From contig JAIOQW010000163.1 of the NCBI GenBank assembly GCA_021108405.1, positions 1-59,049 of the forward strand: DNA of 59,049 bases, in the 5' to 3' direction. Made by a program: the position numbers and the translations under genes. The stretch's first letter is position 1; every line of letters begins with the position of its first letter. The notes beneath the pieces are model-generated. The model had not been told where the DNA came from. It saw nothing but the letters and a program-made list of their open reading frames with translations, and did not search any database. Shown here one piece after another: positions 2,018 through 20,611 of this stretch. This stretch comes from Methanosarcinales archaeon (GTDB taxonomy: Archaea; Halobacteriota; Methanosarcinia; Methanosarcinales; Methanocomedenaceae).

Positions 2018-2713
2018 ATGAAAAGGATTAAATTAATTGCAATAAGTATATTATTCCTGTGTCTGGTTATCATACCTGCGATTGCACAGGAAAATAACAC
2101 AACATCAAATGAAACTAATGTAACGTCAAATGAAACTAATGCAACAGCAACTATCGAACCAACAGCACACCCGAATGCCACAGAAACAGCTACTTCAATA
2201 CCAACTGATGGCAAGTTCCGTGTAGGTCCAACTGTAACGCTACGTCCGGTAAATGATGTAATAGATAAACATCAGGATGGTCTGGTCGAATTGTACATGA
2301 ATAACCCTTCATTGAATGACGTGACTCTTTACGCAGATGTACAGATAAGCGTGCCATCGGGGATCCATGTATACGGAGAAGGATTCGGATATGGCGGTGC
2401 TGCCGGAACAGTAGCCGGGACGTTTGAAGTGCCACCCGGAACAGTCAGGACCATACATATCAACATCAAGAGTGAAAAGGCTGGTAACTTCAATGTTCAT
2501 TTCACAGGCTTATACTGGCCGGATGGTGACAAAGACGCATTCCAGCAGATATCATTGACACACCCACTTACAGTGAAAGAGCCATCATCCAATCCAATGG
2601 ATCCGGAACCTGGCACTAAAATCCCAACAGATAAACCGAATGGACTGGCATTACCATTTGGCATCCTCTCGATGATAGCAATCGTTTTAGTCGTGCTGAT
2701 TATGCGAAAATGA
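2018..2713 (+). CDS. Secreted, C-terminally membrane-anchored Ig-like surface protein (paralog A)
   Basis: The 231-residue protein has a Sec signal peptide (MKRIKLIAISILFLCLVI, cleavage near AIAQ), a Thr/Asn-rich linker with several NxT/NxS sequons (about residues 27-65), one beta-sandwich-like domain (about 70-190, VTLRPVNDVI to HPLTV), a Pro-rich spacer and a C-terminal transmembrane helix ending in MRK. The domain resembles archaeal COG1361-type S-layer-related domains and is close to the next gene's product and to the C-terminal domains of the proteins at 5469 and 10469. AGGAGG precedes the start. It is first in a long same-strand run. It probably sits on the outer face of the membrane; the ligand or role is unknown. 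Confidence 0.72.
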   Translation: MKRIKLIAISILFLCLVIIPAIAQENNTTSNETNVTSNETNATATIEPTAHPNATETATSIPTDGKFRVGPTVTLRPVNDVIDKHQDGLVELYMNNPSLNDVTLYADVQISVPSGIHVYGEGFGYGGAAGTVAGTFEVPPGTVRTIHINIKSEKAGNFNVHFTGLYWPDGDKDAFQQISLTHPLTVKEPSSNPMDPEPGTKIPTDKPNGLALPFGILSMIAIVLVVLIMRK

Positions 2714-2751
2714 ATGAAAGAAATAGCAATAAAAGCAAGAAGGAATCGAAA

Positions 2752-3495
2752 ATGGACACAAGAAAATGCTCCCCTTGGTCGCATTTACTTGAGATATATT
2801 TTTATAAAATATATACAGTAAAGAAACTCATTGCCATATTCACCATATGTTTATGTCTGGCACTAATGCCTGTGATAGCGCAGGAAAACAACTCAACTGT
2901 AAATGAAACGAATACAACAGCTACAATTGAACCAACGACAGTGCCGAGCGACCAACCCGGTGAAGCTAAGTTCCGTGTAGCTCCCACTGTGACACTGCGC
3001 CCGGTAAATGATGTGATCAATAAATCACAGGACGGACTGGTTGAATTATACATGAACAATCCATCAGTAAATGACGTGACACTTAACACAGATGTACAAA
3101 TGAGTGTCCCTTCTGGGATCCATGTATATGGAGAAGGATTCGGATATGGCAGTGCAGCCGGAACAGTAGCCGGAACATTTGAGGTGCCGCCCGGAACAGT
3201 CAGGACCATACATATCAACATCAAGAGTGAAAAACCAGGTGACTTTACTATTCATTTCACAGGCTTATACTGGCCGGATGACGACAAAGACGCATTCCAG
3301 CAGATATCATTGACACACCCGTTGACTGTGAGTGAACCATCACCTGATCCACTTAATCCGAATCCAACCGGTGGGAAGGAAGAACTACCATATACTTACA
3401 TAATCGTCGGGTGTCTTGCGGTGATCGCTATTGCATTCATTGCAATGATTATCCGGAAACCTCCAAAGACCGAAGTGGTCATTGAAGAGGAGTAG
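2752..3495 (+). CDS. Secreted, C-terminally membrane-anchored Ig-like surface protein (paralog B)
   Basis: This is a tandem duplicate of the preceding gene: residues from VAPTVTLRPVNDVI to HPLTV are nearly identical, while the Thr-rich linker and tail differ. The ATG at 2752 has AAGGA just upstream and gives 247 residues. An ATG at 2710 overlapping the previous stop would add 14 residues. Either way an unusual 20-residue extension precedes the hydrophobic signal (KKLIAIFTICLCLALMPVIA). A C-terminal transmembrane helix (YIIVGCLAVIAIAFIAMII) is followed by a short acidic cytoplasmic tail ending in EEE. The extension suggests the original start codon was lost after duplication. Confidence 0.68.
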   Translation: MDTRKCSPWSHLLEIYFYKIYTVKKLIAIFTICLCLALMPVIAQENNSTVNETNTTATIEPTTVPSDQPGEAKFRVAPTVTLRPVNDVINKSQDGLVELYMNNPSVNDVTLNTDVQMSVPSGIHVYGEGFGYGSAAGTVAGTFEVPPGTVRTIHINIKSEKPGDFTIHFTGLYWPDDDKDAFQQISLTHPLTVSEPSPDPLNPNPTGGKEELPYTYIIVGCLAVIAIAFIAMIIRKPPKTEVVIEEE

Positions 3496-3503
3496 AGAAG
3501 CAG

Positions 3504-4172
3504 ATGAAGAGAATCAAGGTAGGTATAGGTGGAAATGGAACAATCAGGATCAAACTAAAAAAGAAAAAGAGAAACAATGAGCATGCAGGGACATCGGAGA
3601 TGAGAGGGGATTCTCCCGCATTCCCTGCACCTCATGCTTCTTTTTCTGCAGGGCAGAGGATCTCTCTGTCATACCCCATTATCAGCCAGATGGAGATAAG
3701 AGTGGAATCTGTATTCAGACCAAAAGAAACTGATGTTGAAGTAGTATATGCACTTACAGGGTATGGCACAAGCGTTGACCAACTCCATAAATTCACATCA
3801 AATGAGGTAGTAGCTCATGCCACATCAAAGATGATCTCATGTACTGCTGCGAAGATGATCGAGCACATAAGAAGCGAGCGTATCGAGATACCGGACCTGA
3901 TCGTTCATATCCACAGCCATCCATTAGGTGCGCCATCTCTATCTGATGTGGATAAACAGACCATGCCCACGGTTGCTGCACAGATGAGAGCTATTATACC
4001 AGATGCAACCATACTATTTGGTGTACATGCCATAGGCAGTGAAGAGCGAAGAGCACGAATACCACCTGAGCGAGTATCACAAAATACGGTGCGATGGAGC
4101 AGCATCACCCGTGTACACGAGGTTGCGTTCTTTGATGAATATGCAAAACCTATTGAAGTAAGGATTGATTGA
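3504..4172 (+). CDS. JAMM/MPN-domain metalloprotease (JAB family)
   Basis: The 222-residue protein has a basic N-terminus (RIKLKKKKRN, residues 15-24) and a JAB/MPN domain from about residue 60. The zinc signature is complete: H137-S-H139-P140, six residues, S147, two residues, D150. A conserved-type Glu lies upstream near E101. JAMM proteases cleave isopeptide or peptide bonds next to ubiquitin-like modifiers; in archaea they act on SAMP-type proteins. No ubiquitin-like or E1 gene is visible nearby, so the substrate is unknown. It lies 8 bases after the previous gene and ends just before a winged-helix gene, so it is probably co-transcribed. Confidence 0.75.
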   Translation: MKRIKVGIGGNGTIRIKLKKKKRNNEHAGTSEMRGDSPAFPAPHASFSAGQRISLSYPIISQMEIRVESVFRPKETDVEVVYALTGYGTSVDQLHKFTSNEVVAHATSKMISCTAAKMIEHIRSERIEIPDLIVHIHSHPLGAPSLSDVDKQTMPTVAAQMRAIIPDATILFGVHAIGSEERRARIPPERVSQNTVRWSSITRVHEVAFFDEYAKPIEVRID

Positions 4173-4176
4173 TAGC

Positions 4177-4689
4177 ATGGATAGATCAGAGAATATAGAG
4201 AAACTGGCCGGGCTTCTCTCGGCAGATGAGTATGGTGATATTATTGCAGAAACGCTTGTCGAGATCCTTGCCGAGGAGCGCAAACGCAATATCTTTGTTA
4301 CTAAATTACAGGATCTGAAGAATGAAGTAAGAACGATCGACCGGAAGATCACGTTCACACCAATGGAGCAAAGTGTGCTTGATTTCGTAATTGCAATGAA
4401 ACAGCCACTTAATGCGAGTGAAGTTTCAAAAGGAATGGGCGCTGTATATTCAAGTCTGCAACACAGGACACATGCATCAAGTGTACTAAATACGCTTGTT
4501 TCAAAAGGGGTTCTCGGAAAAATTAAAATAGGTCATAGTTACTATTTTACATCACCTGATGAAGCTGTAAGAGAATCCCTAAAAAAGCGGGGAGAAGAAC
4601 CTGATAGATGTTCGCCGGTTAGAATTGGGGATGAGACCGGGTTGCCTCTGGCGGTTGTGCTTGAGGTGATTGGTGGGTTATTAGGGTGA
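4177..4689 (+). CDS. Winged-helix DNA-binding protein
   Basis: The ATG at 4177 gives 170 residues; a TTG at 4165 overlapping the previous stop is possible. An acidic N-terminal helical part (residues 1-55, LAGLLSADEYGDIIAETLVE) precedes a winged helix (about 60-130: FTPMEQSVLDFVIAMKQPLN, ASEVSKGMG, SSVLNTLVSKGVL, HSYYFTSPDE). The fold resembles MarR/TrmB-like archaeal regulators. It lies between the JAMM protease and the first ATPase. It could regulate the operon, for instance through the palindrome at 1974-1985, but nothing shows this directly. Confidence 0.6.
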   Translation: MDRSENIEKLAGLLSADEYGDIIAETLVEILAEERKRNIFVTKLQDLKNEVRTIDRKITFTPMEQSVLDFVIAMKQPLNASEVSKGMGAVYSSLQHRTHASSVLNTLVSKGVLGKIKIGHSYYFTSPDEAVRESLKKRGEEPDRCSPVRIGDETGLPLAVVLEVIGGLLG

Positions 4690-4699
4690 GGATAAGAAT

Positions 4700-5467
4700 A
4701 TGAGACGAATCGAATTCCACAATAGAGCTGAGGAAAAAAAAGAAATAAAAAGCCTCCTTGAAACTGAGCCAACGCTGATCACTTTCATTTACGGACCGAT
4801 AAACAGCGGGAAGACGGAACTGATCAACCACGTGATAGAAGAGTTACCAGAGGAATATGTCGTCTTCTACATAAACTTAAGGACTAAATTCCTGGTGAGC
4901 TATGATGATTTCATCGAGTCATTATTCGAGATGGAGATGGAATCCGAGGGGATGAAGAGAAAAGGGAAGGAGACGCTCACAGAGTTGGTGTCATCTGTTA
5001 CAAAAGTTGCGGGAATACCGATAAATAAAGAGTTTCTAGATTACGTGTTTAAGGATAATAAGCCGAAGAACGCATCCTCATATATAATTAAACTTTTCGA
5101 AGAGGTGAAGGTAACAGGTAAGCAACCAGTGTTGATTCTGGATGAATTACAGAAGATAGGGGATGTGAAAGTGAATGGAAAAGATGTAGAGAGTGAATCT
5201 AAAAAGCTATTAAAGATCAGAACAAGCCGGATGCTCTCTATATTTGACGACATATCGCTTGGAGAGGTTAAATATTCAGAAAAAAACATAATAAAAGAGT
5301 TTAGGAATTTCGAACAAGAAGAAATACTACTGTATGACAGGATAAATAAAGAAAAAATATTTTTAGTTGGGAGAAATGTCTTGTTTATTGACCCGACACA
5401 AAGAACAATTAAACCACAATCACGGCTGAATCTGCTTGCGATACGAGAGGTGATAAAGGATGTGTAA
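4700..5467 (+). CDS. Archaeal STAND-type ATPase, internally deleted paralog
   Basis: The N-terminus matches the four other paralogs in this run: MRRIEFHNR, P-loop GPINSGKT (about residues 32-39), and Walker B LILDELQ near 150. After Walker B it jumps from KIGDVKV straight to NGKDVESESK, a segment that lies about 100 residues further on in the 9427 paralog. The sensor strand (AVSSDSLF), the LLVDDF segment and the CGGKP element are therefore all missing. The C-terminus (SLGEVKYSEK, VGRNVLFIDP, IKPQSRLNLLAIREV) is intact and in frame. The length is 255 residues against 349-358. The deletion probably abolishes normal ATPase cycling. GAGGATAAGAAT precedes the ATG. Confidence 0.72.
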   Translation: MRRIEFHNRAEEKKEIKSLLETEPTLITFIYGPINSGKTELINHVIEELPEEYVVFYINLRTKFLVSYDDFIESLFEMEMESEGMKRKGKETLTELVSSVTKVAGIPINKEFLDYVFKDNKPKNASSYIIKLFEEVKVTGKQPVLILDELQKIGDVKVNGKDVESESKKLLKIRTSRMLSIFDDISLGEVKYSEKNIIKEFRNFEQEEILLYDRINKEKIFLVGRNVLFIDPTQRTIKPQSRLNLLAIREVIKDV

Positions 5468-5468
5468 T

Positions 5469-7307
5469 ATGAAAATGGCTGTTCTGGGATCAGTTCTAGC
5501 CAGTCTGCTGCTGCTTGTGGCACTTCCGGTATCTGCAGGAATGCAGGGCTGGCAGTATCAGCAAGAGATTGCGATTCAGGAGAATTCTGGCGAGACACTT
5601 CATGATTACCAGGTGCTAGTGGAACTGGATGGCGGTGACTTTCCAGAAGAGGCACAGCCGGATGGCGATGATATCAGATTCACGGATGCGGACGGACATG
5701 AATTGAGTTACTGGATTGAGGAATTTGATGCGGGATCTGATTACACAAGGATCTGGGTGAAGGTGCCTGAGATTCCCGCTAATGGTGAAGCTAGGATTAT
5801 GATGTGGTATGGGAATCCGGATGCTGAGAGTGTGAGTGATGGTGACGCAGTGTTTGAGTTCTTTGATGATTTTGAAGGATCTCGTTTAGATACAGGTAAA
5901 TGGGATATGAGAAATTCGGAGTATATAACCGTAGCACAGAGTAAGGTAAAAATCGGTGGTGGTGGCAGCTCAGAAACTGATGGTGTGATATGGTCAAAAT
6001 CTACTTTCCCCAGTGAATACATTATAAGAATGAATGCAGAATTGGCTGATAAGTGGCCTGCCATTGTTTGGAACATTCAAAAAGATGGAGGGGGCTACGC
6101 AGAATGGATAAACCCAGAGAATGACAAAGGATATTTCTATTACTATGACGTCTTAGACGGGTCGTATCAGAAATTAGATAAAACTGGGCAGAACACTTAC
6201 ATTTTTAATCAGTTTAAGATAATAGAGGCGGAAATAGCAGGAAATGTTCATAAATTTTATCAAGATGGGATTTTGAAAAGTCATTATACACATTCAGACT
6301 ATCAGAGTGGCGGAAAAATGGGTTTAGAACAGTGGTCTACTGGCTATTCAGAATGTGATTGGCTCTTAGTCCGACAATACACATCCTCCGAACCCACTGT
6401 CACCCTAGCTCCACCCACCCCCGCAATCCATACAGCGCTCTATATTACTAAATCCCCATCCCTCCACTCCATCCGTCAGTTCGGTGAAACCGCAATCATA
6501 CTATCCATCGATAACTCAGGCACCATAGACGCAACCGACATCGAGATCACTGATACGATCCACCCCAGTTTCGATCTCACATCAGGCGACTTCCCGAACC
6601 CGAAGCGCTACGACCTGATCCGACCCGGCGAGACAAGAGATCTCCAATACGCAATCTCATCAAAGGAGAGCGGCACATTTACGCTTGACCCTGCCACTGT
6701 CACATATGCAGATGAGGATGGCAACATCCAGGAAGTGAAATCAAAACCCGCATCTATTAAAGTCATCCCGTCCACAGAGAGCGATACTGCTGGCACATCA
6801 CACAACCCGTCAGTCTCGAGTGCAAGCGTGCAGCTTCACGGCGAAAAAACAGATGTCGTTCTCGGTGAGGATATCCTGTTGAAACTCTCTGCTGTGAACC
6901 TGATCACTAAACCCACGATGCATGTGCAGGTCATAATCATCCCGCCTTCTGGTATGAGTGTCACGTCCTCTGCTTTCGCCAAGTCCGGAGCCGGGCAGTA
7001 TACGACCACTTATGAACTTGAGCCCGGAACCGGTAAAGATATCGAGGTTGCGATACGGTCGAATCAGGTAGGTGATTTCGATGTGAAAGGCAGGATCATC
7101 TACTACTTCGGCAATGATCGCGAAGACGCGGAGGATCACACACTCACCCTGCCGATCACTGTGCAGGCGAAGGCAGAGGCGGGTGCGGGCGCAGAGTGGA
7201 CAGCAGGCACATCAGAATCGGAGGAGAAGGGAACGAGTACGTCTGGATTCGTGGTAGTAATTGCTATCATCGGATTATTACTGGCTTATCTGAGGAAAAG
7301 AGCATGA
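5469..7307 (+). CDS. DUF2341/LamG-like multidomain surface protein with C-terminal anchor
   Basis: The chosen ATG at 5469 (AAAGGA 8 bases upstream; an ATG at 5460 is also in frame) gives 612 residues. It has a signal peptide (MKMAVLGSVLASLLLLVALP), a DUF2341-type domain (about 20-110, WYGNPDAESVSDG), a jelly-roll-like region (about 115-290), a CARDB/COG1361-like domain (about 305-430), and a second Ig-like domain (about 450-580, VQLHGEKTDVVLGEDILLKL). A C-terminal transmembrane helix ends LAYLRKRA. The Ig-like domain is almost the same as in the protein at 10469. Its stop overlaps the next ATPase start (ATGA at 7304), suggesting translational coupling. Confidence 0.72.
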   Translation: MKMAVLGSVLASLLLLVALPVSAGMQGWQYQQEIAIQENSGETLHDYQVLVELDGGDFPEEAQPDGDDIRFTDADGHELSYWIEEFDAGSDYTRIWVKVPEIPANGEARIMMWYGNPDAESVSDGDAVFEFFDDFEGSRLDTGKWDMRNSEYITVAQSKVKIGGGGSSETDGVIWSKSTFPSEYIIRMNAELADKWPAIVWNIQKDGGGYAEWINPENDKGYFYYYDVLDGSYQKLDKTGQNTYIFNQFKIIEAEIAGNVHKFYQDGILKSHYTHSDYQSGGKMGLEQWSTGYSECDWLLVRQYTSSEPTVTLAPPTPAIHTALYITKSPSLHSIRQFGETAIILSIDNSGTIDATDIEITDTIHPSFDLTSGDFPNPKRYDLIRPGETRDLQYAISSKESGTFTLDPATVTYADEDGNIQEVKSKPASIKVIPSTESDTAGTSHNPSVSSASVQLHGEKTDVVLGEDILLKLSAVNLITKPTMHVQVIIIPPSGMSVTSSAFAKSGAGQYTTTYELEPGTGKDIEVAIRSNQVGDFDVKGRIIYYFGNDREDAEDHTLTLPITVQAKAEAGAGAEWTAGTSESEEKGTSTSGFVVVIAIIGLLLAYLRKRA

Positions 7308-8377
7308 AAAGAATTGCATTCCACGATCGCGAAAGAGAAATAAAAGAGATCATGAATATACTGGACTCGGAGCCGTCCCTGATCACCTTCGTGTACGGTC
7401 CGATAAACAGCGGCAAGACCACACTGATCAGCCATCTGATAAAGGAACTTCCAGACGAGTATGCCCCGTTCTATGTTAATCTGCGAGGACGATTTATTGT
7501 GGACTATGAAGATTTCCTAAACGTCCTTTTCGAGATTGACGAAATAAGTGGGGTTAATAATGTTACCGAGTATTCGAAATCGATATTGAAGGATCTGGGA
7601 GCAGTTAGTGGAATTCCGATACCAATAAATCTATTCGAGCAGATATTTGAAAAAAAGGACAAAAGCAAAGATATGTTTAAATACATAGAACAATTCTTTA
7701 TGCAAATATCAAAGACGCGTACTCCCATTTTAATCATCGATGAATTGCAGGTGGTCGGAGATCTGAAGATCGATGGGTTACTGATGTATAAATTATTCAA
7801 CTTTTTTATACGATTGACAAAGGAGTTACATCTCTGTCACGTCTTCGGTGTTTCATCCGATTCATTATTCATCGAAAAAGTCTACAGTGAGGCGATGCTC
7901 GATGGAAGGTGCAGATATCTACTGGTGGATGATTTTGATTCCGTAACTGCCGCCGTGTTTCTGGAGGAACATGGTTTTACTGAAGCTGAGAAGGCGGTTG
8001 CCTGGGAATACTGCGGCGGAAAGCCAGTGAATTTAATAGAAATGATCTATGCCGATAACAGGGAACGAATTGCAAAGGATATGCTAAAGACAAGAATAAC
8101 CCAGCTCAAGGATTTACTCGACTATCTGGATTATACCAAGCCGAGAATTATGATTGGAGATGATGAATACATGGTTGAAAAGGAAGATATTGTTGATATC
8201 CTTAACAGGTTTGTAGATACGGAATATATCGATGATAAAGGGTTGAACAGACCTGCAAAGCATCTCTTGATCAAGGATAACATCCTGTTCTTTGACCCAC
8301 ATACCGGGGTCATCAAACTGCAGTCGAGGATGAATCTGCTCGCGATACAAGAGGTGATGAAAGATGAAAAGAATTGA
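7304..8377 (+). CDS. Archaeal STAND-type ATPase (PF01637-like), paralog 2
   Basis: The ATG at 7304 overlaps the upstream stop (ATGA) and is preceded by GAGGAAAAGAGC; longer readings run into the upstream gene. The 357-residue protein has an MKRIAFHDR start, P-loop GPINSGKT (about 32-39), Walker B ILIIDELQ (about 145), sensor-like VSSDSLF, LLVDDFD and CGGKP elements, and a C-terminal winged-helix-like region ending LQSRMNLLAIQEVM. Proteins of this archaeal ATPase_2 class are soluble STAND-type P-loop NTPases; physiological roles are mostly unknown. The C-terminal third differs from the other copies. Its 3' end overlaps the next paralog by 14 bases. Confidence 0.75.
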   Translation: MKRIAFHDREREIKEIMNILDSEPSLITFVYGPINSGKTTLISHLIKELPDEYAPFYVNLRGRFIVDYEDFLNVLFEIDEISGVNNVTEYSKSILKDLGAVSGIPIPINLFEQIFEKKDKSKDMFKYIEQFFMQISKTRTPILIIDELQVVGDLKIDGLLMYKLFNFFIRLTKELHLCHVFGVSSDSLFIEKVYSEAMLDGRCRYLLVDDFDSVTAAVFLEEHGFTEAEKAVAWEYCGGKPVNLIEMIYADNRERIAKDMLKTRITQLKDLLDYLDYTKPRIMIGDDEYMVEKEDIVDILNRFVDTEYIDDKGLNRPAKHLLIKDNILFFDPHTGVIKLQSRMNLLAIQEVMKDEKN

Positions 8378-9440
8378 ATTTTACGACCGCAAAAAGGAAA
8401 TCAAAGAGATCATGAACATATTGGACACAGAGCCATCTCTGATCACCTTCATCTACGGACCGATAAACAGCGGCAAGACCACGATGATCAGCCACCTGAT
8501 AGAACAACTACCAGAAGATTATGCTCCTTTTTATATTAATCTTCGGGGTAGATTCATAACAGATTATGAAGATTTCTTAAACGTATTATTCGAGATTGAC
8601 GAAAAAGGCGTGGTCGATAATGTCACTGAGTATGCAAGATCAATATTAAAAGATATGGGAAATGTTAGTGGAATTCCAATACCAGTTAATCTATTTGAAC
8701 AGATCTTTGAAAAAAAAGATAAAAGCAAAGATATGTTTAAATATATGGAACAGTTCTTTGTAGAAATATCAAAAAAACGTACACCAGTCCTGATCATCGA
8801 TGAGTTGCAGGTGGTTGGAGATATAAAAATCGATGGATTTTTAATATACAAATTATTTAATTTTTTTATACGACTTACCAAGGAACTGCATCTATGCCAT
8901 GTTTTTGCAGTTTCTTCTGACTCACTATTTATCGAACAAGTTTACAGCGAGGCGATGCTACAGGGGCGAAGCAGGCATCTGCTGGTGGATGACTTTAATA
9001 AGGAGATAACGATGGATTTTTTGGATGAATATGGATTTACCGATGTGGAAAAAGAACTTGCATGGAACTACTGTGGTGGCAAGCCAATTTATCTGGTTGA
9101 GTTGGTAAATTCAGGAGAAAACCGAAAAAAGAAGGCAGAAGAGATGCTTGGAATGAGGATAGGACAGATTGAAGGACTCATAGAAGATGCCAGGGAATTT
9201 GGATACAGGATATCCTATGGTGATGAGAAAATCATATTGAGCGAGGAGCATATACTTAAAAATTTAGAGAAATTCAGAGACAGGGATTATCTTAAAGCAA
9301 GTGAGCTTTCAAAATCAGTTAAACTCGGTTTGATTAAAGCAAACATACTCTTTCTTGACTCGGTTAAACAAATCATTAAGCCTCAATCACAATTGGATTT
9401 GCTTGCAATACGAGAGGTGATGAAAGATGAAAAGAATTAA
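8364..9440 (+). CDS. Archaeal STAND-type ATPase, paralog 3
   Basis: The 358-residue paralog starts inside the end of the previous gene, with GAGGTGATGAAAG serving as RBS. It has P-loop GPINSGKT, Walker B VLIIDELQ and sensor SSDSLF. Its first 110 codons are nearly identical at the DNA level to the gene at 9427, indicating recent duplication or gene conversion. The C-terminal module (QIEGLIEDAREFGYRISYGD to NILFLDSVKQIIKPQSQLDL) is specific to this copy. It overlaps the next gene by 14 bases in exactly the same way as at its own start, as expected for unequal crossing-over in a tandem array. Confidence 0.75.
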   Translation: MKRIEFYDRKKEIKEIMNILDTEPSLITFIYGPINSGKTTMISHLIEQLPEDYAPFYINLRGRFITDYEDFLNVLFEIDEKGVVDNVTEYARSILKDMGNVSGIPIPVNLFEQIFEKKDKSKDMFKYMEQFFVEISKKRTPVLIIDELQVVGDIKIDGFLIYKLFNFFIRLTKELHLCHVFAVSSDSLFIEQVYSEAMLQGRSRHLLVDDFNKEITMDFLDEYGFTDVEKELAWNYCGGKPIYLVELVNSGENRKKKAEEMLGMRIGQIEGLIEDAREFGYRISYGDEKIILSEEHILKNLEKFRDRDYLKASELSKSVKLGLIKANILFLDSVKQIIKPQSQLDLLAIREVMKDEKN

Positions 9441-10476
9441 ATTTCACGACCGCAAAAAGGAAATCAAAGAGATCATGAACATATTGGACACAGAGCCATC
9501 TCTGATCACCTTCATCTACGGACCGATAAACAGTGGAAAGACCACGATGATCAGCCACCTGATAGAACAACTACCAGAGGATTATGCGCCATTCTATATT
9601 AATCTCCGGGGTAGGTTCATAACAGATTATGAAGATTTCCTAAACGTATTATTCGAGATTGACGAAAAAGGTGTGGTTGATAATGTCACTGAGTACGCAA
9701 GATCAATGTTAAATGATCTGGGGACCGTTAGTGGAATTCCAATACCAGTTAATCTATTTGAACAAATCTTTGAAAAAAAGGATAAAAGTAAAGATATGTT
9801 CAAATATATAGAACAATTTTTTACAGAAATATCAAAGAACCGTGTACCTGTCCTGATCATCGATGAGTTGCAGGTAATTGGTGATCTGAAGATCGATGGA
9901 TTGTTGATATATAAATTATTCAACTTTTTCATACGATTGACAAAGGAGTTACATCTCTGTCATATCTTTGCGGTTTCATCAGATTCACTCTTTATCGAGC
10001 AGGTTTATAGTGAGGCGATGTTGCAAGGGCGCAGCCGGCATCTACTGGTCGATGACTTTAATAAGGTCGATACAATGGATTTTCTTAACAAGCATAACTT
10101 CAGCGATAAGGAGAAAGAACTTACATGGAATTGCTGCGGTGGCAAACCAATATGTTTGGTTGAGCTTGCGAATGCAAAAATGAATGGAAAAGATATCGAG
10201 AGCGAGGCTAAAATGTTAGTAAAGATTAGAACTAGCCAGATACTTTCGATATTTGATGAAATATCACTTGGAAAAGTAGAACATTCAGAAAAGGATATAA
10301 TAGAGGAGTTTAAGAATTTTGAAAAAGAAGAGATAATACAATATGCTAGAGTAAATGAAAGAAAAATTTTTTTAGTTGGAAGAAATGTGTTGTTCATTGA
10401 CCCGGTGCAAAGAACAATTAAGCCACAGTCGAAGTTGAACCTGCTCGCAATACGAGAGGTCATAAACAGTGAATAA
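9427..10476 (+). CDS. Archaeal STAND-type ATPase, paralog 4
   Basis: This 349-residue protein has the same N-terminal P-loop (GPINSGKT), Walker B VLIIDELQ and sensor SSDSLF as its neighbour, but its C-terminus (NGKDIESEAK, SLGKVEHSEKDIIEEF, VGRNVLFIDPVQRTIKPQS) is the type found in the internally deleted copy at 4700. It is thus a mosaic: N-terminal part shared with the 8364 gene, C-terminal part shared with the 4700 gene. The RBS is GAGGTGATGAAAG in the tail of the previous gene. Its stop overlaps the GTG of the following surface-protein gene. Confidence 0.75.
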   Translation: MKRIKFHDRKKEIKEIMNILDTEPSLITFIYGPINSGKTTMISHLIEQLPEDYAPFYINLRGRFITDYEDFLNVLFEIDEKGVVDNVTEYARSMLNDLGTVSGIPIPVNLFEQIFEKKDKSKDMFKYIEQFFTEISKNRVPVLIIDELQVIGDLKIDGLLIYKLFNFFIRLTKELHLCHIFAVSSDSLFIEQVYSEAMLQGRSRHLLVDDFNKVDTMDFLNKHNFSDKEKELTWNCCGGKPICLVELANAKMNGKDIESEAKMLVKIRTSQILSIFDEISLGKVEHSEKDIIEEFKNFEKEEIIQYARVNERKIFLVGRNVLFIDPVQRTIKPQSKLNLLAIREVINSE

Positions 10477-11833
10477 AATATATCGAATATGGATGGTACC
10501 TTTTAGTATCATAACAATACTACTGATCATATCAATAGCATCCGCAACCGATTCTCCCCTTGATACAGTTCAGGTCTATGCTCTCGGACCAAAAGACACA
10601 GGTTCATCAGTTGAATCTTCAATAATCCTTGAAAAAGACAGCGAATATTGCATCGTGGTCTCTGGCGTCTTCCAGTTTCGAAGAGATGTTGACTGGGGCC
10701 GGGCAGATGCGCAGTTTCGTATGGGCAATGGGGGTGCATATACTTACTCGTTCAACTCGATCGAGTTCAATGGAAAGCGGATGAATGCAGCAATAAGTGA
10801 TGTCGAGAATCACACATACACATTCTATCACACAGGTGATGGTGAAAAGATCAGGTTCAGTATTTATGACTGCATTATCACTCATGAGCGAGGTGGATAC
10901 GATAACAATGCAGGAATGCTCTTAGTTGAGATATATCCACTAACAACACTTTCTGTAACAAAACTACCATCACCGCATACTATCGAGAAAGGAGATACGT
11001 CAACGATAATCGTGACTGTGAAAAACACAGCTCCAAAAGGAATGGGCGAGTTAAAGGATATCGAAGTGACTGATTCCTGTCCTTCGGGTTTCACACTGAT
11101 AAGCGGTGATGTGCATGCGCAGTATCAGGTACTCAAACCAGATGAGTCACGCACACTCCAATATGTCATAAAACCTACTCAGAGCGGTACATTCAACCTT
11201 GAGCCAGCCAGGGTCTTATACTATGATGAGAGTGGAGAAAATCATACTAAAAGATCAGATACTGCAACACTTACAGTTGTATCATCCCCGGGACTGCAAC
11301 CCACAGCACCACCTAACGCAAGTGTGAAATTACACGGCGAGAGGACTGATGTAGGGATCGGAGATGATATTTTACTCAAGCTCTCGGCTGTGAACCTGAT
11401 AACAAAGCCGGTAATGCATGTTCAAATAATTATCATTCCACCGTCCGGAATGAGTGTAGCATCATCAGGTTTTGTTATGTCAGGAGCCGGGCAGTTCACT
11501 TCTGACTATGAAATTGATCCTGGCGTGGGCAGGGACATTGAGGTCAGGATCGTGGCAAACCAGATAGGCAATTATACAGTGGAAGGAAGGGTGATCTATT
11601 ATTTCGAAGATGATGTCGAGAATGCCGAAGACTATACACTACGTTTACCGATCAGGGTAAGGTCTGTCGGTATAGAGTCAACAATAGCCACATCCACACC
11701 CAAACCTACATCCGATGGTCATGGCATAATACCAGGGTTGCCAGGATTTACTGGTGTGATTATGTTGATCGTAGTGATGATTGTAACTGTTTTAATAAGA
11801 GGAAGAAAAAAACAAAAACGAGATCAATTTTAA
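10469..11833 (+). CDS. COG1361-like secreted surface protein with C-terminal transmembrane anchor
   Basis: The 454-residue product starts at a GTG overlapping the previous ATPase stop. It has a signal peptide (residues 1-27, ISIASA), an N-terminal beta domain (about 30-150), a CARDB-like domain (about 155-270, LSVTKLPSPHTIEKGDTSTI), a second Ig-like domain (about 285-405, VKLHGERTDVGIGDDILLKL) and a C-terminal helix (FTGVIMLIVVMIVTVLI) followed by RGRKKQKR. The last two domains are collinear with those at 5469, so each surface protein is paired with an adjacent ATPase. A role in surface assembly or adhesion is inferred. Confidence 0.7.
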   Translation: MNKIYRIWMVPFSIITILLIISIASATDSPLDTVQVYALGPKDTGSSVESSIILEKDSEYCIVVSGVFQFRRDVDWGRADAQFRMGNGGAYTYSFNSIEFNGKRMNAAISDVENHTYTFYHTGDGEKIRFSIYDCIITHERGGYDNNAGMLLVEIYPLTTLSVTKLPSPHTIEKGDTSTIIVTVKNTAPKGMGELKDIEVTDSCPSGFTLISGDVHAQYQVLKPDESRTLQYVIKPTQSGTFNLEPARVLYYDESGENHTKRSDTATLTVVSSPGLQPTAPPNASVKLHGERTDVGIGDDILLKLSAVNLITKPVMHVQIIIIPPSGMSVASSGFVMSGAGQFTSDYEIDPGVGRDIEVRIVANQIGNYTVEGRVIYYFEDDVENAEDYTLRLPIRVRSVGIESTIATSTPKPTSDGHGIIPGLPGFTGVIMLIVVMIVTVLIRGRKKQKRDQF

Positions 11834-11852
11834 TTCATTGGAGGAAGTATAA

Positions 11853-13889
11853 ATGAAATCAGGAATTCAGAAACAAATAAGATCATTTCGGAGTATCCGA
11901 AGAAGTTGTATATGCCTGATCGCACTTGCAATATTTTCAGGGTGTATATGTATACCGGATGCGGCAGCACAAGCCCCAACCACTATCGACTATATTCACA
12001 TCACAACTAATGTGAACAATGGCTATGCTATAACCACTGTGGAAGAGAAACTCACCAATCCCCACGACACTCCGACAGATGATGAGTTCAGGTTCCTGAT
12101 CCCTGATGATGCATTCATCTCAGGTTTTTCTATATTTGTCGATGGAGTTGAATACAAAGCAGATGTTCTCTTAAAAGAAGAGGCAGATGAGCAGTTTGAG
12201 CAGGCAGTTTCAGAAGGAAAGACTGCAGGCCTTCTAAAGGTAAAAAAAGAGAATATATTCTCATATTCACTGAGTTTTACACCTCACCAGAGTATTACTA
12301 TCCGTTTGACATATGAACAACCAATTAAAAAGATACTTGGTGAATATGAATACATTTTATCATTACGAGAAACCGATGTGGCACATCATGTACCTGATCT
12401 TCTGGTAAACATTACAGTGACATCAGTGAATAAGATCAACACACTGGAAACTCCTGGATTTAAAGAGGCAAACGTGAAATACCTCTCCCCTACGAAAGCA
12501 CGGGTCACTTACAGTGCAACGATGCTTCCGGACAGGGACTTAAGAGTTATTTTTACCACTGATAACACATCACTAAATGGAGAGATGCTCTTCTATGAAA
12601 CAGGTGGGCAGGGTTATTTGATGCATGTTTTCTCACCATCGCAGGAGGACCTGGGGACCACGGCTCTTAGTAAAGAGATCATTTTTGTGGTCGATAAGTC
12701 AGGCTCTATGAGAGGTACCAAAATGGTACAGGTTAAACAGGTCTTTACAGGCATTATCACAGACCTTCCACCTGACGACTACTTCAATATTATTTTCTTT
12801 GAGAGTGATGTTATAACGTTTCGGGATTCACTCATGGAAGCAAACACACAGACAAAGGCAGATGCAGCGAACTTTGTTAACATGCTCGGCGCAGGTGGTG
12901 GCACGAATATTAACGAAGCACTGCTTCAAGCAGTAAATATGTTTGAGCCTGATTCGAAGCGTGTACCTATCATTGTTTTTCTCACGGACGGAGAGCCTAC
13001 GAATGGCGTAACATCACCTCATGTGATCAGAGACAACGTAAAAAACGCAAATAAGGCAGATGTTTCTATATTCACTATCGCATTTGGGATCGAGGATGAA
13101 GAAAACTATGATTTTCTAAGAGCGCTAAGTCTTGAGAACTATGGTGTAGCAGAACAGTTCGACCTCCATGAAAATTCTGAGACCGAAATGAACACATTCT
13201 ATAAGACAATATCCACACCTGTAATAACTGATATGGACTGGAGCTATACTGATTCATCTGATATCGTGAATACAGGTTACAATACTCTCTTTACAGGATC
13301 AGATGCCATTATACTTGCCAGATACCAGGCAGGTAAGAACAATATAGATTCAAGTATTGATGCAATTACACGCACAGGCAACCATAGCTTTGATGAGACA
13401 TTTTCTGTTGTTACCAAACAAGAGAACAGCTTTATTCCAAAGCTCTGGGCATATACAAAGATAAGGCGGCTGATGGACAGGATGGTTGTAGTAGGTGAGA
13501 CAGATACAGATGCACTAGTATCCGAGATCACTGATCTTTCTTTGGAGTACGGTTTTGTCACTCCATACACATCACTATTTGTGGAAGTACCTGTCTTTGA
13601 AAAGATTAGCACAACAGCCACTGAAACTGACATACCGGTAATGTCAGAAGCGGTACCCGATTCAGCCACTGGTGATAAAACCACTTATAATTCAGCCCCC
13701 AGTCATGGAATGGATCAAACAGGAGAAGCTATGGACTGGGATTCCAGACCAATCGACCAGGAAGTTTCTCCTGCAGAAGCAGTTCCTGATGCAGCACCAA
13801 CAGAACAAGAACCAGGCTTTAGCGCTTTCTTAGCAACTACAGGGATTGTCGCTATTGCATATCTGATGAGAATAAACAGAAAAATTTGA
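11853..13889 (+). CDS. VIT domain plus von Willebrand factor A surface protein
   Basis: The 678-residue protein has a signal peptide with a lipobox-like FSGC near residue 30, a VIT domain (about 40-170; DEFRFLIPDDAFISGFSIFV, then LLKEEADEQFEQAVSEGKTA) and a vWA domain (about 215-410). The vWA domain carries a MIDAS motif DKSGSM, GGGTNI and FLTDGEPT. After a beta-rich region (to about 590) come a low-complexity tail and a C-terminal hydrophobic helix (FLATTGIVAIAYLM). The architecture matches inter-alpha-trypsin-inhibitor heavy-chain-like proteins, where the vWA binds a metal and mediates protein contacts. It follows the surface protein by 19 bases, with GGAGG upstream. Confidence 0.85.
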   Translation: MKSGIQKQIRSFRSIRRSCICLIALAIFSGCICIPDAAAQAPTTIDYIHITTNVNNGYAITTVEEKLTNPHDTPTDDEFRFLIPDDAFISGFSIFVDGVEYKADVLLKEEADEQFEQAVSEGKTAGLLKVKKENIFSYSLSFTPHQSITIRLTYEQPIKKILGEYEYILSLRETDVAHHVPDLLVNITVTSVNKINTLETPGFKEANVKYLSPTKARVTYSATMLPDRDLRVIFTTDNTSLNGEMLFYETGGQGYLMHVFSPSQEDLGTTALSKEIIFVVDKSGSMRGTKMVQVKQVFTGIITDLPPDDYFNIIFFESDVITFRDSLMEANTQTKADAANFVNMLGAGGGTNINEALLQAVNMFEPDSKRVPIIVFLTDGEPTNGVTSPHVIRDNVKNANKADVSIFTIAFGIEDEENYDFLRALSLENYGVAEQFDLHENSETEMNTFYKTISTPVITDMDWSYTDSSDIVNTGYNTLFTGSDAIILARYQAGKNNIDSSIDAITRTGNHSFDETFSVVTKQENSFIPKLWAYTKIRRLMDRMVVVGETDTDALVSEITDLSLEYGFVTPYTSLFVEVPVFEKISTTATETDIPVMSEAVPDSATGDKTTYNSAPSHGMDQTGEAMDWDSRPIDQEVSPAEAVPDAAPTEQEPGFSAFLATTGIVAIAYLMRINRKI

Positions 13890-13924
13890 GTGATAATAGC
13901 AGAATCTGGCAGGAGAGAAACAGC

Positions 13925-14992
13925 ATGAGACATATAGAATTTCATGATAGGGAAAAAGAGATAACAGAGATAATGAGGTTACTCAACACAGATCCATCCC
14001 TGATTACCTTTATTTATGGACCGATAAATAGCGGAAAGACTGAACTGATCACCCATTTGACTAAACAACTACCAGAGAACTATGTTGTTTTTTATATAAA
14101 TCTTCGAGGGAAGTTCATATCAAGTTACGATGACTTTGTAAGGGCTTTATTCAAATTGGATCGCGAAGAGAAGGAATATAAAGCAATATTAAAAAAGATA
14201 TCGGAAGTATCGATAAAAAGTCTGAAGTATACTGGAATACCCATAACTGAAGACATTCTGGAATTATTTTTTAGAGAAAGAAATTATGAAGACGTTTTTG
14301 AGTTTCTAGAAGATTATTTTACCGAAATAGCAGAAAATAAAGTTCCTGTGTTGATAGTGGATGAACTGCAGAAAATTGGAGATGTTAAGATTAATTCATT
14401 TCTGATTTACGAACTCTTCAATCTGTTTATTCGGTTGACAAAAGAGTTACATCTCTGCCACGTCTTTGCGGTTTCATCAGATTCGATCTTCATTGAAAAT
14501 GTCTACAGTGAAGCGATGCTTGAGGGTAGATGTAGGTATCTACTGGTGGATGATTTTGATGAGGAGACCACTACCGCATTTTTAGATAATTATGAATTTA
14601 GCGATGATGAGAAGACGGTTGCCTGGAAATACTGCGGTGGCAAACCGATATGTCTGGTTGAACTCGTGAATATACCAGATGATCGAAAAAACAAGGCAAA
14701 GGAGATGCTCAAGATAAGAAAGGGGCAAATAGAAGAGGTTGTGTATTCGCTTGAAGCGAGGGATAAGAAGATGTTTGACATGATAACAAGAATACTTTTT
14801 GAATTTATCGAGAAGGATAAGGTCGGATACAAATATCTAAACGATGAAATTAAGTTTCTGGTCGGGAAAAACATTATTTTTGCAGATTCAGTAAATAAAG
14901 AATTGAGACCACAATCCAGGTTAAATCTACTTGCTATACGGGAAGTGATGTTATCGATAACTACAACACTGGAATCCACATCTCATCAATAA
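13925..14992 (+). CDS. Archaeal STAND-type ATPase, paralog 5
   Basis: The ATG at 13925 with AGGAGAGAAACAGC upstream gives 355 residues. P-loop GPINSGKT, Walker B VLIVDELQ, sensor SSDSIF, LLVDDFDEET and CGGKP are all present. The middle region (EEKEYKAILKKISEVSIKSL) and C-terminus (YSLEARDKKMFDMITRILFE) diverge from the other copies, and the DNA is the most distinct of the five, so it is an older member. It follows the VIT-vWA gene by 35 bases and closes the ATPase/surface-protein run. Confidence 0.75.
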   Translation: MRHIEFHDREKEITEIMRLLNTDPSLITFIYGPINSGKTELITHLTKQLPENYVVFYINLRGKFISSYDDFVRALFKLDREEKEYKAILKKISEVSIKSLKYTGIPITEDILELFFRERNYEDVFEFLEDYFTEIAENKVPVLIVDELQKIGDVKINSFLIYELFNLFIRLTKELHLCHVFAVSSDSIFIENVYSEAMLEGRCRYLLVDDFDEETTTAFLDNYEFSDDEKTVAWKYCGGKPICLVELVNIPDDRKNKAKEMLKIRKGQIEEVVYSLEARDKKMFDMITRILFEFIEKDKVGYKYLNDEIKFLVGKNIIFADSVNKELRPQSRLNLLAIREVMLSITTTLESTSHQ

Positions 14993-15033
14993 AAGGCAAT
15001 TGTTTTATAATTTATAAACAAACCTAATCTATT

Positions 15034-15297
15034 ATGTTCAATTTAGAGTTATGTATCAGATTTCTGATTGGACTTTTCTTCCTCTATGCATGCATATATG
15101 CGGTCAGGTCCGTCAAAATCGATTACTGGAAGCAGTGCTGGTATGTTATCCTACTTGGAAGTATAATCCATATGACCTATATCATAGCTGCTTTTATGGA
15201 ATTTACTTATGCAGGCCATTTAAGAAATCTTGGAATGGGAATTGTGGCGATCGGGATCATAATGGTTGCAAGACGTACTAAAGATATTTTAAGATGA
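15034..15297 (+). CDS. Small membrane protein, three predicted transmembrane helices
   Basis: The 87-residue protein has hydrophobic segments at about residues 5-25, 36-56 and 64-80 and a basic end (RRTKDILR). No family is recognised. It follows the last ATPase by about 40 bases on the same strand and converges with the KaiC-like gene on the other strand. The ATG has no obvious Shine-Dalgarno sequence. A second overlapping frame (15051-15281) lacks hydrophobic organisation and is less likely. Confidence 0.55.
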   Translation: MFNLELCIRFLIGLFFLYACIYAVRSVKIDYWKQCWYVILLGSIIHMTYIIAAFMEFTYAGHLRNLGMGIVAIGIIMVARRTKDILR

Positions 15298-15313: not shown

Positions 15314-16003
15314 TCAAATAATAATGATCCCTTCATCAGTGATCTTGTAATTGGCACTTATATGATCACATCCCATCATCGCTTCAACAGTTATCTTTTT
15401 ACCGTCCATATGCACAATATTATCTACCGTTGCCTTTAACATAGTCTCTATCTGTGAATCTACCACTCCTTCCGTATAGGTGATTATACCTGTACTTCCA
15501 GCCAATTTTATCCTCATAGTATATGATTTAAGTACCCGGATCATAAGTATTGGTGAATTATAGGCAAAAAGGGTAGTTGCAGAATCAAGGATCGATCTGA
15601 ATGTATGTGTTTTTTGGAAGATGGACTGTAGTTCTTCAATAATCTCACTGATGATCTCAGTTGGATTCTGCGGTGAAGAGATCTTGAATGAAGCAGTCTC
15701 TTTTTGTACAGACCCGATTGACCCTGATGCAATATCCATTACATAAAGCTGCTTTTTAGTAAAATAGTCATGAATAAACCATTTGAAGTACATCATTGTC
15801 TCTTCAAGCTGTGGAAGATTATAATCTGTCATTATATAAAGGCAGTATTCATCGTCAGTTATTGCCTGGTGCAGGAACTGGTAACAAAATATGGACTTAC
15901 CTGTCTTTGGTGGCCCGTATACCAATGTAATAGTATTATTAGGGAATCCACCGCCAATTAATTCATCAAGACCTGCGATCCCTGATCTGGTAGATTGTAT
16001 CAT
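15314..16003 (-). CDS. KaiC-like RecA-superfamily ATPase
   Basis: The 229-residue single-domain protein begins with the KaiC/RadA-type STRSGIAGLDELIGGGFPNN, with P-loop GPPKTGKS (about residues 30-37). A FRSILDSATTLFAY Walker B-like strand lies near 137-150, and a terminal domain with VDNIVHMDG follows. Single-domain KaiC-like proteins in archaea act as regulatory ATPases and include ArlH/FlaH relatives. It is the last gene of a four-gene minus-strand operon, starting 8 bases after the KaiC-GTPase fusion. A regulatory role with the GTPase and Roadblock protein is inferred. Confidence 0.75.
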   Translation of the reverse strand: MIQSTRSGIAGLDELIGGGFPNNTITLVYGPPKTGKSIFCYQFLHQAITDDEYCLYIMTDYNLPQLEETMMYFKWFIHDYFTKKQLYVMDIASGSIGSVQKETASFKISSPQNPTEIISEIIEELQSIFQKTHTFRSILDSATTLFAYNSPILMIRVLKSYTMRIKLAGSTGIITYTEGVVDSQIETMLKATVDNIVHMDGKKITVEAMMGCDHISANYKITDEGIIII

Positions 16004-16011
16004 TTTTGTTA

Positions 16012-17196
16012 TTATACTCTGTATATAAGATCAAAAAGCGCATTAAGCGTCTGATTGATCCCCTTATTTTTCTTTACTGAAACTGGCACTATATGTACAT
16101 CTTCCCATAATGCCATACGTTTTTTTATCTCCTCCGGCCGCATAGCACCAGAGAGGTCCTGCTTATTAGCAACAATTATCTTTGGTATTACCTCTGCCCG
16201 GCACATATTTATCATTTCCTTTGCACGGGCAAAGGTATTTGGTTGGGTTGAGTCAATTACAATAAAGGCACCGATCGCTTCTCTTGCCAGCGGCTCAAGT
16301 AATAGATCAAACCGTTCCTGACCAGGTGTGCCAAAAATATCAGCAGAAAATCCCTTGTAATCAACATGTCCGATATCAAGTCCAACCGTAGTTGGAAATA
16401 GTTCATATGCCTGCCTTTCTACCGAGACAGCATCCTGGGAGATCGCATGAACAAATGCTGTCTTTCCTGCATTGTAGGGTCCGGTTACTAACAGCTTTGG
16501 AATAAATACTTTAACTCCTCCGGGCATTACCAGTTCGAAAAACGTTTTAGTCCTGGATATTGTACTCCAACTGGACTTTACCACTACATAGACCTGTCTG
16601 TACATCACTCTTTCTTCTATACCGAAAAGTTCTATCTCACAGTTGAACAGATCTATCAGTTGTTCTATCATCCGGTCCTCATAATCCCATCTGGTAAATA
16701 TATATATCATATTGACATCGTGCTTGTTAGCAGCTTCATTCCATGTTTTGATCAATTCCATTGTGTTATTTGCACCAATAGAATCAATTAATGTGGCTAC
16801 ATTTTCGATCACTGCCGTACCACCGGCAATGTCGTTGATCGCACATAATACGGTATCTTTACTTTTATTAAAATCATCAATGCAGTATTTACCGATCGGT
16901 GGTACTCCCATCATAGGGGAGATGGAATCAACAAAGAATAACTGGCCTGACTGCAGAGGTGTCATAATATCCCATCCGTATTTGTCAAATACCCGCGAAA
17001 TCTCAGCAGGTGTACGGGTATTAGTATATATAAATCCGATCTCTTTATTATTGCGTATACGCTGGGCAATGATCTGATAACCGAAAATATCACATAGCAT
17101 ACCTGGTATTGCATTGAATAATACTGATGTTCCAGGTGGTGTACCCCCTTTCAGGATATCATCCAGTCGCGGAATATAGGTTTTTTTCATATCCAT
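16012..17196 (-). CDS. Fusion of degenerate KaiC-like domain and small Ras-like GTPase (COG2229-type)
   Basis: In this 394-residue protein, residues about 1-205 follow the KaiC-like fold (YIPRLDDILKGGTPPGTSVL), but the P-loop position reads NAIPGMLCD and lacks the GK[ST], so ATP hydrolysis is unlikely. Residues about 220-394 are a small GTPase with intact boxes: G1 GPYNAGKT, switch T in TTVGLD, G3 FGTPGQERF, G4 ANKQDL, G5-like VPVSVKK. The GTPase resembles the MglA/SR-beta-like group that partners Roadblock/LC7 proteins, and a Roadblock gene lies directly upstream (4-base gap). The fusion ties a KaiC-type scaffold to a G-protein switch. Confidence 0.82.
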   Translation of the reverse strand: MDMKKTYIPRLDDILKGGTPPGTSVLFNAIPGMLCDIFGYQIIAQRIRNNKEIGFIYTNTRTPAEISRVFDKYGWDIMTPLQSGQLFFVDSISPMMGVPPIGKYCIDDFNKSKDTVLCAINDIAGGTAVIENVATLIDSIGANNTMELIKTWNEAANKHDVNMIYIFTRWDYEDRMIEQLIDLFNCEIELFGIEERVMYRQVYVVVKSSWSTISRTKTFFELVMPGGVKVFIPKLLVTGPYNAGKTAFVHAISQDAVSVERQAYELFPTTVGLDIGHVDYKGFSADIFGTPGQERFDLLLEPLAREAIGAFIVIDSTQPNTFARAKEMINMCRAEVIPKIIVANKQDLSGAMRPEEIKKRMALWEDVHIVPVSVKKNKGINQTLNALFDLIYRV

Positions 17197-17200
17197 TATC

Positions 17201-17578
17201 CTATACCTCTTCCAGTATCTCCTGAACCTGTTTGGCCCTTATCTCGATCTCGACTGTGATCAGACCAAGCTGGGCTTCTACCTGCGCCAGTGCAAAGAAT
17301 AGTGCCTTTTCTCCCGAAGGCTTTAACAATAATACACCGTGTTCGGTCTTTACATTAACCTCTGCTACTTCTCCGGTTCCCATTTGCGAACTTGCTGTCT
17401 GGGCACTTGCTATAATTGTTGAGCATAGCGCACCGACAATGCGTTCATTCATATCAGGCGGCATTATTGATGTGATCAGCAGTCCTTCAGTACTCACTAT
17501 CCCTGCAGCGCTTACCTGTCCTACCTGCATAAATTTGGCCAGTACCTGATCCAGCTTTTCTTTTTTAGTTTGCACCAT
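17201..17578 (-). CDS. Roadblock/LC7-domain protein
   Basis: The ATG at 17578 with AGGTGAGAG upstream gives 125 residues. The whole chain fits one Roadblock/LC7 domain (AAGIVSTEGLLITSIMPPDM, LCSTIIASAQTASSQM, GVLLLKPSGEKALFFALAQ). Such proteins dimerise and bind or regulate small GTPases (MglB with MglA). It sits between the PAS-STAS sensor and the KaiC-GTPase fusion with 4-base gaps on both sides, strongly suggesting it regulates that GTPase. Confidence 0.88.
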   Translation of the reverse strand: MVQTKKEKLDQVLAKFMQVGQVSAAGIVSTEGLLITSIMPPDMNERIVGALCSTIIASAQTASSQMGTGEVAEVNVKTEHGVLLLKPSGEKALFFALAQVEAQLGLITVEIEIRAKQVQEILEEV

Positions 17579-17582
17579 ACTC

Positions 17583-20549: not shown

Positions 20550-20611
20550 GTGATAACTTCCAGAGAAATAAAATAAATACAAATTTTTTAGTGATTTATT
20601 GGATAAAGTTA

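Follow-up and report, generated by a model that had tools for sequence, protein, structure and literature searches.

A conserved archaeal surface locus with combinatorially variable ATPases as a candidate recognition system

The stretch of DNA analyzed here, which we call the window, is an entire contig (C5, 59,049 bp) of a 3.67-Mb archaeal metagenome-assembled genome (MAG) that is 99% complete. Between positions 2018 and 15297 it carries a row of genes (g1 to g13, Table 1) in which a conserved core of surface proteins, a JAMM/JAB metalloprotease, a winged-helix protein, and a VIT-vWA protein is joined by P-loop ATPases interleaved with further surface proteins. As judged from sequence comparison, each ATPase combines two discrete variable blocks that assort independently and are joined by near-invariant stretches, and it is the presence of such combinatorial ATPases in a conserved surface locus that is new here. 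The shuffled ATPases and the conserved surface core together suggest that a recognition system not yet described operates at the cell surface. The explanation that we favor is a variable or polymorphic surface-recognition system on a conserved, regulated core, a function that we infer with a confidence somewhat short of even.

The gene order g1, g2, JAMM, winged helix, a variable run of ATPase and surface-protein genes, g10, and VIT-vWA is kept in the relatives of the window. Within the order, 19 of 186 genomes have the JAMM gene, surrounded wherever contigs are long enough by g1/g2, the winged-helix gene, g10, and the VIT-vWA gene; elsewhere in the phylum, four more distant genomes carry it too. 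The full order is found in the anaerobic methanotrophic (ANME) archaeon ANME-2c E20 (PQXF01000018; G049:C79), with about 14 ATPases, in ANME-2c-GOS (RXIK01000022; G028:C19), and in a genome (G043:C201) that also holds the UBA203 contig DASC01000149 (G, C, L, and f numbers are our handles for genomes, contigs, loci, and families). An earlier note on this DNA had seen in it a candidate multigene system without prior description and had named a lack of conserved linkage in any related genome as one thing that would refute it; the recurrence shows that linkage. The same order in many independent assemblies rules out a chance arrangement or an assembly chimera, and, on gene order, the core is conserved as a block. 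Most of the relatives are MAGs, where tandem arrays may be misassembled; their genes were called with a simple open reading frame (ORF) picker, with secretion judged by hydrophobicity alone; lineage names come from named records only; and the labels ANME-1 for f10 and Methanoperedenaceae for f5 are tentative, being guessed from the named records that related contigs have.

Comparison separates this core (g1 and g2, JAMM, the winged-helix protein, g10, and VIT-vWA) from a variable insert, which is carried by one set of genomes and consists of 1 to about 14 ATPases (PF01637 plus PF21690) interleaved with surface proteins bearing lectin-like heads. A core of g2, JAMM, winged helix, and g10 free of ATPases is found in f5 genomes (L109, L112, and L113) and in G009 (L110); the VIT-vWA gene accompanies it in L110, L112, and L113, and gene order and strand differ in these ATPase-free forms. 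In f9, a reduced form, g2-JAMM-surface protein-winged helix, is left (L099 and L100). Because ATPase-free and reduced cores occur in other genomes, the ATPase/surface array reads, in these alignments of loci, as an insertion between the winged-helix gene and g10. The ATPases, which the earlier note had counted as part of the set, do recur in the locus of relatives but lie outside its conserved core.

Block analysis of the ATPases covered about 70 full-length homologues, with V1 defined as residues 70-140 and V2 as residues 255-349. V1 falls into 4 allele classes and V2 into about 8, counts obtained with the linkage threshold set to 55% (lowering it to 45% merges V2 into one class and V1 into two). 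Pairwise identity is bimodal in both blocks and unimodal in the framework. Membership in the V1 classes is independent of membership in the V2 classes: 135 pairs share both, where 130.7 +/- 9.9 are expected. The same independence appears in raw identities, which the class threshold does not affect, the Mantel correlation between V1 and V2 being r = -0.001, with 0.92 within V1 and 0.79 within V2. In the linkage matrix, linkage drops near residue 190, within near-invariant sequence; the first 35 residues, too, are weakly linked to the remainder of the protein. The pattern can be seen within the window itself, where the residues shared by g8 and g9 amount to 92% in the P-loop part and 34% in the C-terminal domain (in nucleotides, 96% at the start and 41-50% in the C-terminal domain), and g5 and g9 share 49% and 74%, respectively.

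Same-class V1 sequences are 81.7% identical within genomes and 80.4% identical between genomes, an equality that rules out concerted evolution within a genome. Misassembly is an unlikely cause of the shuffling because the independence spans many separate contigs and genomes. ATPases of the ANME-1 group (f10) belong to the same classes, with V1 about 80% identical and the framework only 65-70%, and their best V1 and V2 matches often come from different ANME-2 genes. In the smaller outgroup set, V1 and V2 correlate at 0.38, and shuffling may be less complete there. The diversifying ATPase family of the earlier note thus stands, and is combinatorial to a degree not visible from a single sequence.

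As to the nature of these proteins, g5, g7, and g12 carry PF01637 (ATPase_2) and PF21690 (MJ1010-like_2nd) above the gathering score, and g8 and g9 are placed in the family by homology and PF21690. The Walker A motif GPxNSGKT and the Walker B residues D146/E147 are invariant or nearly so in 67 ATPase sequences. Although g5 lacks about 92 residues in frame, it retains both motifs; from its alignment, it is probably defective or derivative. STAND NTPases are defined by C-terminal superstructure repeats (TPR, WD40, and LRR) after the winged helix. The locus ATPases stop after the MJ1010-like domain and are without such repeats. Their fold neighbors are STAND-like and ORC-like, among them SSO1545, PAB2304, and CED-4. 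AlphaFold models their P-loop half poorly (pTM 0.46), and PDB matches to designed pentatricopeptide repeat proteins were judged spurious, involving a short stretch in repeat proteins with none passing alone. The G049 genome holds 34 ATPase copies, many of them solitary and away from surface genes. In L103 (723-3773), a 1016-aa ORF comprises a full ATPase followed by ~660 residues without a Pfam match.

In Pfam, the large surface proteins match DUF2341 and DUF11/BatD/TRAP-beta-like domains, and Laminin_G_3 and DUF2341 are the lectin-like heads among them. One juxtamembrane immunoglobulin (Ig)-like domain (JM-Ig) closes g1, g2, g6, and g10, so that Pfam and JM-Ig bear out the alternation of secreted, anchored Ig-like proteins with P-loop ATPases that the earlier note had described. 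The JM-Ig profile, which was built from these four query domains and may miss distant relatives, gives four matches in the whole 3.67-Mb genome, exactly those genes. In nine further genomes, its strong matches lie in the locus or its contig fragments, except for a g2-like gene in G020:C100, and a genome without the locus (G006) has no strong match. At strong scores, then, the domain is nearly private to the locus, with one exception, and the heads above it are, by domain comparison, exchangeable. The exceptional gene (L153, 6635-7408; E ~1e-57) lies on a different contig from the main locus of its genome (C145) and differs at its C-terminus. Among weaker matches outside the locus, those on G049:C83 and C124 sit directly upstream of an ATPase. 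g2 adjoins JAMM in most genomes having the locus, and its cytoplasmic tail, RKPPKTEVVIEEE or near variants (consensus R(K/R)PPKTEV(V/N)IEEE), persists across families; its duplicate, g1, is without it. With regard to anchoring, the genome has a gene for archaeosortase A (ArtA), and relatives of the surface proteins exceed the PGF-CTERM threshold (PF18204).

Some arrays contain traces of unit duplication. Between the ATPases of L103 (7739-12448) and L061 (9547-9927) lie short secreted ORFs (~125-130 aa), which represent the N-terminal stub of a DUF2341 protein fused to the start of the next ATPase; these units recur nearly identical in G049:C79. Off the core locus, in L060 (7564-10408), an ATPase overlaps a secreted S-layer/NosD/dockerin/cyclophilin protein by 8 nt, a junction type of the locus.

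The Prok-JAB match of g3 is weak (E = 0.02), but all 21 homologues aligned keep E64, H137, H139, S147, and D150, and its AlphaFold model (mean pLDDT 77) matches JAB/MPN structures such as Rpn11, CSN5, BRCC36, and AF2198 (Foldseek E ~1e-5, with low TM-scores). Alignment and model thus agree with the earlier assignment of g3 as a JAMM/JAB metalloprotease and point to an intact active site. Against the HvJAMM1 desampylase model NF041370, it scores 16.6 bits, short of the curated cut-off of 130. The trimming of a surface complex by JAMM that the earlier note put forward finds no support here, and the protease presumably lies on the opposite side of the membrane from that complex. The window's contig gave no ThiF/E1 match, the genome has matches on C1 and C109, and E2 and ubiquitin-like (Ubl) proteins were not searched for genome-wide. 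In g11, a VIT domain, the only one in this genome, is followed by a VWA domain, whose motif resembling a metal ion-dependent adhesion site (MIDAS) reads DKSGS.

In the explanation that we favor, the Ig proteins would be anchored by archaeosortase A and would co-assemble outside the cell with the VIT-vWA protein via the shared Ig domain, producing an adhesive or contact-sensing layer with its variable lectin-like heads outward. Inside the cell, the ATPases would be switches driven by nucleotides, each with two variable blocks that recognize diverse signals or partner ATPases; new specificities could arise when the conserved stretches recombine. The JAMM and winged-helix proteins would serve as a cytoplasmic control unit, in which the former, perhaps docked on the conserved g2 tail, may process a regulator or modified target upon a change of state outside, and the latter may tune expression of the operon. 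The likely use would be telling partner, kin, or intruder within cell aggregates. A more specific form of this reading, which we hold more loosely, envisages a pan-ANME pool of ATPase alleles, reassorted in two blocks per ATPase and coupled to lectin-headed anchored proteins and a JAMM/winged-helix switch, that would furnish a lineage-specific recognition repertoire.

Several points weigh against the favored scheme. First, since ATPase-free cores exist, whatever the core does can be done without the ATPases. Second, neither V1 nor V2 classes go with the identity of the gene upstream or downstream, as judged by inspection of the tables without a formal test. Direct recognition of surface proteins by ATPases is unsupported because the classes do not track the neighbor; dedicated ATPase/surface pairs are ruled out as the sole explanation. 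Third, class sharing without a species signal could stem from very ancient paralogy instead of selected diversity. Fourth, PGF-CTERM models give g6, g10, and g11 of the window a weak score or none. Finally, the targets of JAMM could be ordinary conjugates of small archaeal modifiers that have nothing to do with the surface.

Three other explanations deserve consideration. It is possible, if rather doubtful, that the locus encodes an adhesion or aggregation apparatus for syntrophic consortia, in which the surface proteins would be adhesins, the ATPases assembly chaperones or regulators present as redundant paralogues, and JAMM and the winged-helix protein controls of expression. The lectin-like heads (DUF2341 and Laminin_G_3), the VIT-vWA protein with its MIDAS, and archaeosortase A would all suit such a role, the ATPase-loaded form occurs in MAGs titled ANME-2 and ANME-2c, and ANME-2a and ANME-1 are reported to be enriched in adhesion domains (PMC5244752). 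However, redundant chaperones do not explain discrete classes that are common to lineages and freely recombined, and ATPases are also found alone, off surface genes.

An antiviral or inter-element conflict system, with the ATPases as STAND-like sensors diversified by parasites and the surface proteins limiting entry or signaling infection, seems improbable. The STAND-like and ORC-like fold neighbors and the crossing of lineages by recombining ATPase alleles are in keeping with it, as is the concentration of published vWA/STAND conflict systems in aggregating prokaryotes (PMC7159879). But no effector (nuclease, NADase, or pore) was recognized in the locus, and several genomes hold the core without ATPases. 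Known defense systems were rejected, as PADLOC gave only weak matches to the P-loop and JAB parts, and so was viral origin or carriage, as neither the ATPase nor the JAMM profile picked up relatives on viral contigs in two scans of IMG/VR.

Least probable is that the ATPases are a selfish, dispersing family inserted in a surface-protein operon, with shuffling a by-product of many similar copies: the many solitary copies in G049, the lower GC of the ATPase genes relative to core genes, and the truncated surface stubs and truncated ATPase, which point to repeated duplication and deletion, speak for it, but no mobility gene or terminal repeat was noticed beside the ATPases (neither was searched for systematically), surface-ATPase pairs recur outside the locus, and the variable blocks appear to be under selection because V1 is better kept than the framework between ANME-1 and ANME-2.

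The layout of the locus in the window is given in Table 1. As the earlier note had it, the 13 ORFs all lie on the + strand and many overlap. From g1 to g13, the spacings are, in order, -4, 8, 4, 10, -8, -4, -14, -14, -8, 19, 35, and 41 nt, that is, six overlaps and no gap above 41 nt, which is operon-like. Surface genes overlap a following ATPase gene by 4 nt, and ATPase genes overlap a following surface gene by 8 nt. GC is 35-40% in the ATPase genes versus 41-48% in the core and surface genes. The start of g7 is that of the family start codon, its ORF opening at 7196. The small membrane protein g13, thought earlier to complete the set, has no homologue in the related loci examined and is probably not part of the system.

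Table 1. Genes of the locus, with positions in the window
Gene	Position	Strand	Description	Basis
g1	2018..2713	+	Small secreted protein, JM-Ig, C-terminal transmembrane segment; g2 paralogue without cytoplasmic tail	Homologues, alignment, JM-Ig profile
g2	2710..3495	+	Like g1 plus conserved cytoplasmic tail; core gene; true start probably ~2794	Homologues, alignment
g3	3504..4172	+	Predicted JAMM/JAB metalloprotease, full E...HxHx7SxxD motif, conserved basic N-terminal segment MKRIKVGIGGNGTVRIKLKK	Alignment, Pfam, AlphaFold model
g4	4177..4689	+	Winged-helix protein, BlaI/Penicillinase_R-like at weak score, helical N-terminal part; core gene	Pfam, homologues
g5	4700..5467	+	ATPase, V1=1, V2=1; in-frame deletion of residues ~159-250	Alignment, block classes
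g6	5460..7307	+	Surface protein: signal peptide, DUF2341 (lectin-like) head, DUF11/TRAP-beta-like, JM-Ig, C-terminal anchor (weak PGF-CTERM)	Pfam
g7	7304..8377	+	ATPase (PF01637+PF21690), V1=0, V2=3	Pfam, block classes
g8	8364..9440	+	ATPase, V1=0, V2=4	Homology, block classes
g9	9427..10476	+	ATPase, V1=0, V2=1	Homology, block classes
g10	10469..11833	+	Core surface protein: DUF11/BatD-like domain, JM-Ig, PGF-type C-terminus	Pfam, homologues
g11	11853..13889	+	VIT-vWA protein, MIDAS-like DxSxS, PGF-type C-terminus	Pfam
g12	13925..14992	+	ATPase, V1=3, V2=2; ORF opens at 13886, family start 13925	Pfam, block classes
g13	15034..15297	+	87-aa membrane protein	Comparison with related loci

Upstream of position 2018, an AT-rich 275-nt stretch with a (TTTA)n tract precedes g1 and is likely the promoter region. 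Further upstream, 190-1170 (+) encodes a protein with an eRF1/VLRF1-like domain (PF18859, PF03464), possibly a ribosome-rescue release factor. On the other side, a set of genes convergent to the locus lies at 15314-17596 (-) and 17583-20582 (-). It includes a KaiC-like ATPase, a Ras/Arf-type GTPase fused to a KaiC-like domain, a small protein resembling roadblock/LC7 by eye, and a 999-aa protein with repeated PAS-like segments, and it looks like a small-GTPase signaling or polarity set.

ANME archaea grow in tight consortia, and we know of no account of how they recognize partners, kin, or intruders. If the recognition reading is correct, a conserved surface locus with combinatorial intracellular ATPases would be a concrete candidate for this function. 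It would also provide the first functional context for the archaeal ATPase_2/MJ1010 proteins, whose C-terminal domain was reportedly solved years ago from "unknown function" targets.

The open-license literature that we searched contained no description of this locus, but several known systems resemble it in part. The VARTIG modules of Thermococcales (Makarova et al. 2021, PMC8416519), which contain hypervariable Ig domains, likewise encode secreted Ig-domain proteins in archaeal loci that recombine and vary in gene content, and a role in conflict or self/non-self recognition has been proposed for them. In VARTIG, however, it is the C-terminal Ig domain of a large Ig protein that is hypervariable, whereas here JM-Ig is conserved across loci, variation lies in the heads, and intracellular ATPases show shuffling most clearly; the text of the VARTIG paper has no ATPase, JAMM, or VIT. 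The vWA-MoxR and STAND conflict systems (Kaur et al. 2020, PMC7159879), which are enriched in aggregating organisms, also bring together P-loop NTPases, vWA, and sometimes JAB peptidases. The analogy to MoxR-vWA pairs drawn in the earlier note nevertheless fails, as the NTPase here is ATPase_2, with no match to MoxR-type AAA+ among the locus proteins tested; moreover, the vWA protein here is secreted and VIT-linked, and the locus shows no Ubl/E1/E2, effector, or EAD-type adaptor. Sortase- or exosortase-linked VIT-vWA proteins (TIGR03788 marine_srt_targ and TIGR04477) share the placement of VIT-vWA on a surface-sorted protein, but g11 is far below the equivalog cut-off, it has a PGF-type C-terminus, and the gene for the sortase is not in the locus.

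The locus ATPases themselves share their Pfam domains and C-terminal domain structure with the archaeal ATPase_2/MJ1010 family (PDB 3BJO and 3H92; fold neighbors SSO1545, 2FNA, and PAB2304, 2QEN), for which the limited, open-license literature searched held no report of block shuffling or of linkage to surface proteins. In their evolution, they resemble the hsdS subunits of Type I restriction systems (e.g. PMC7394358), in which two variable recognition blocks with conserved stretches between them are reassorted by recombination. The proteins are unrelated, there is no methylase or nuclease here, and the likeness is one of evolutionary pattern alone, but in both, discrete blocks assort independently across conserved stretches. 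If the shuffling is adaptive, these ATPases would add a combinatorial specificity family beyond restriction enzymes and immune receptors.

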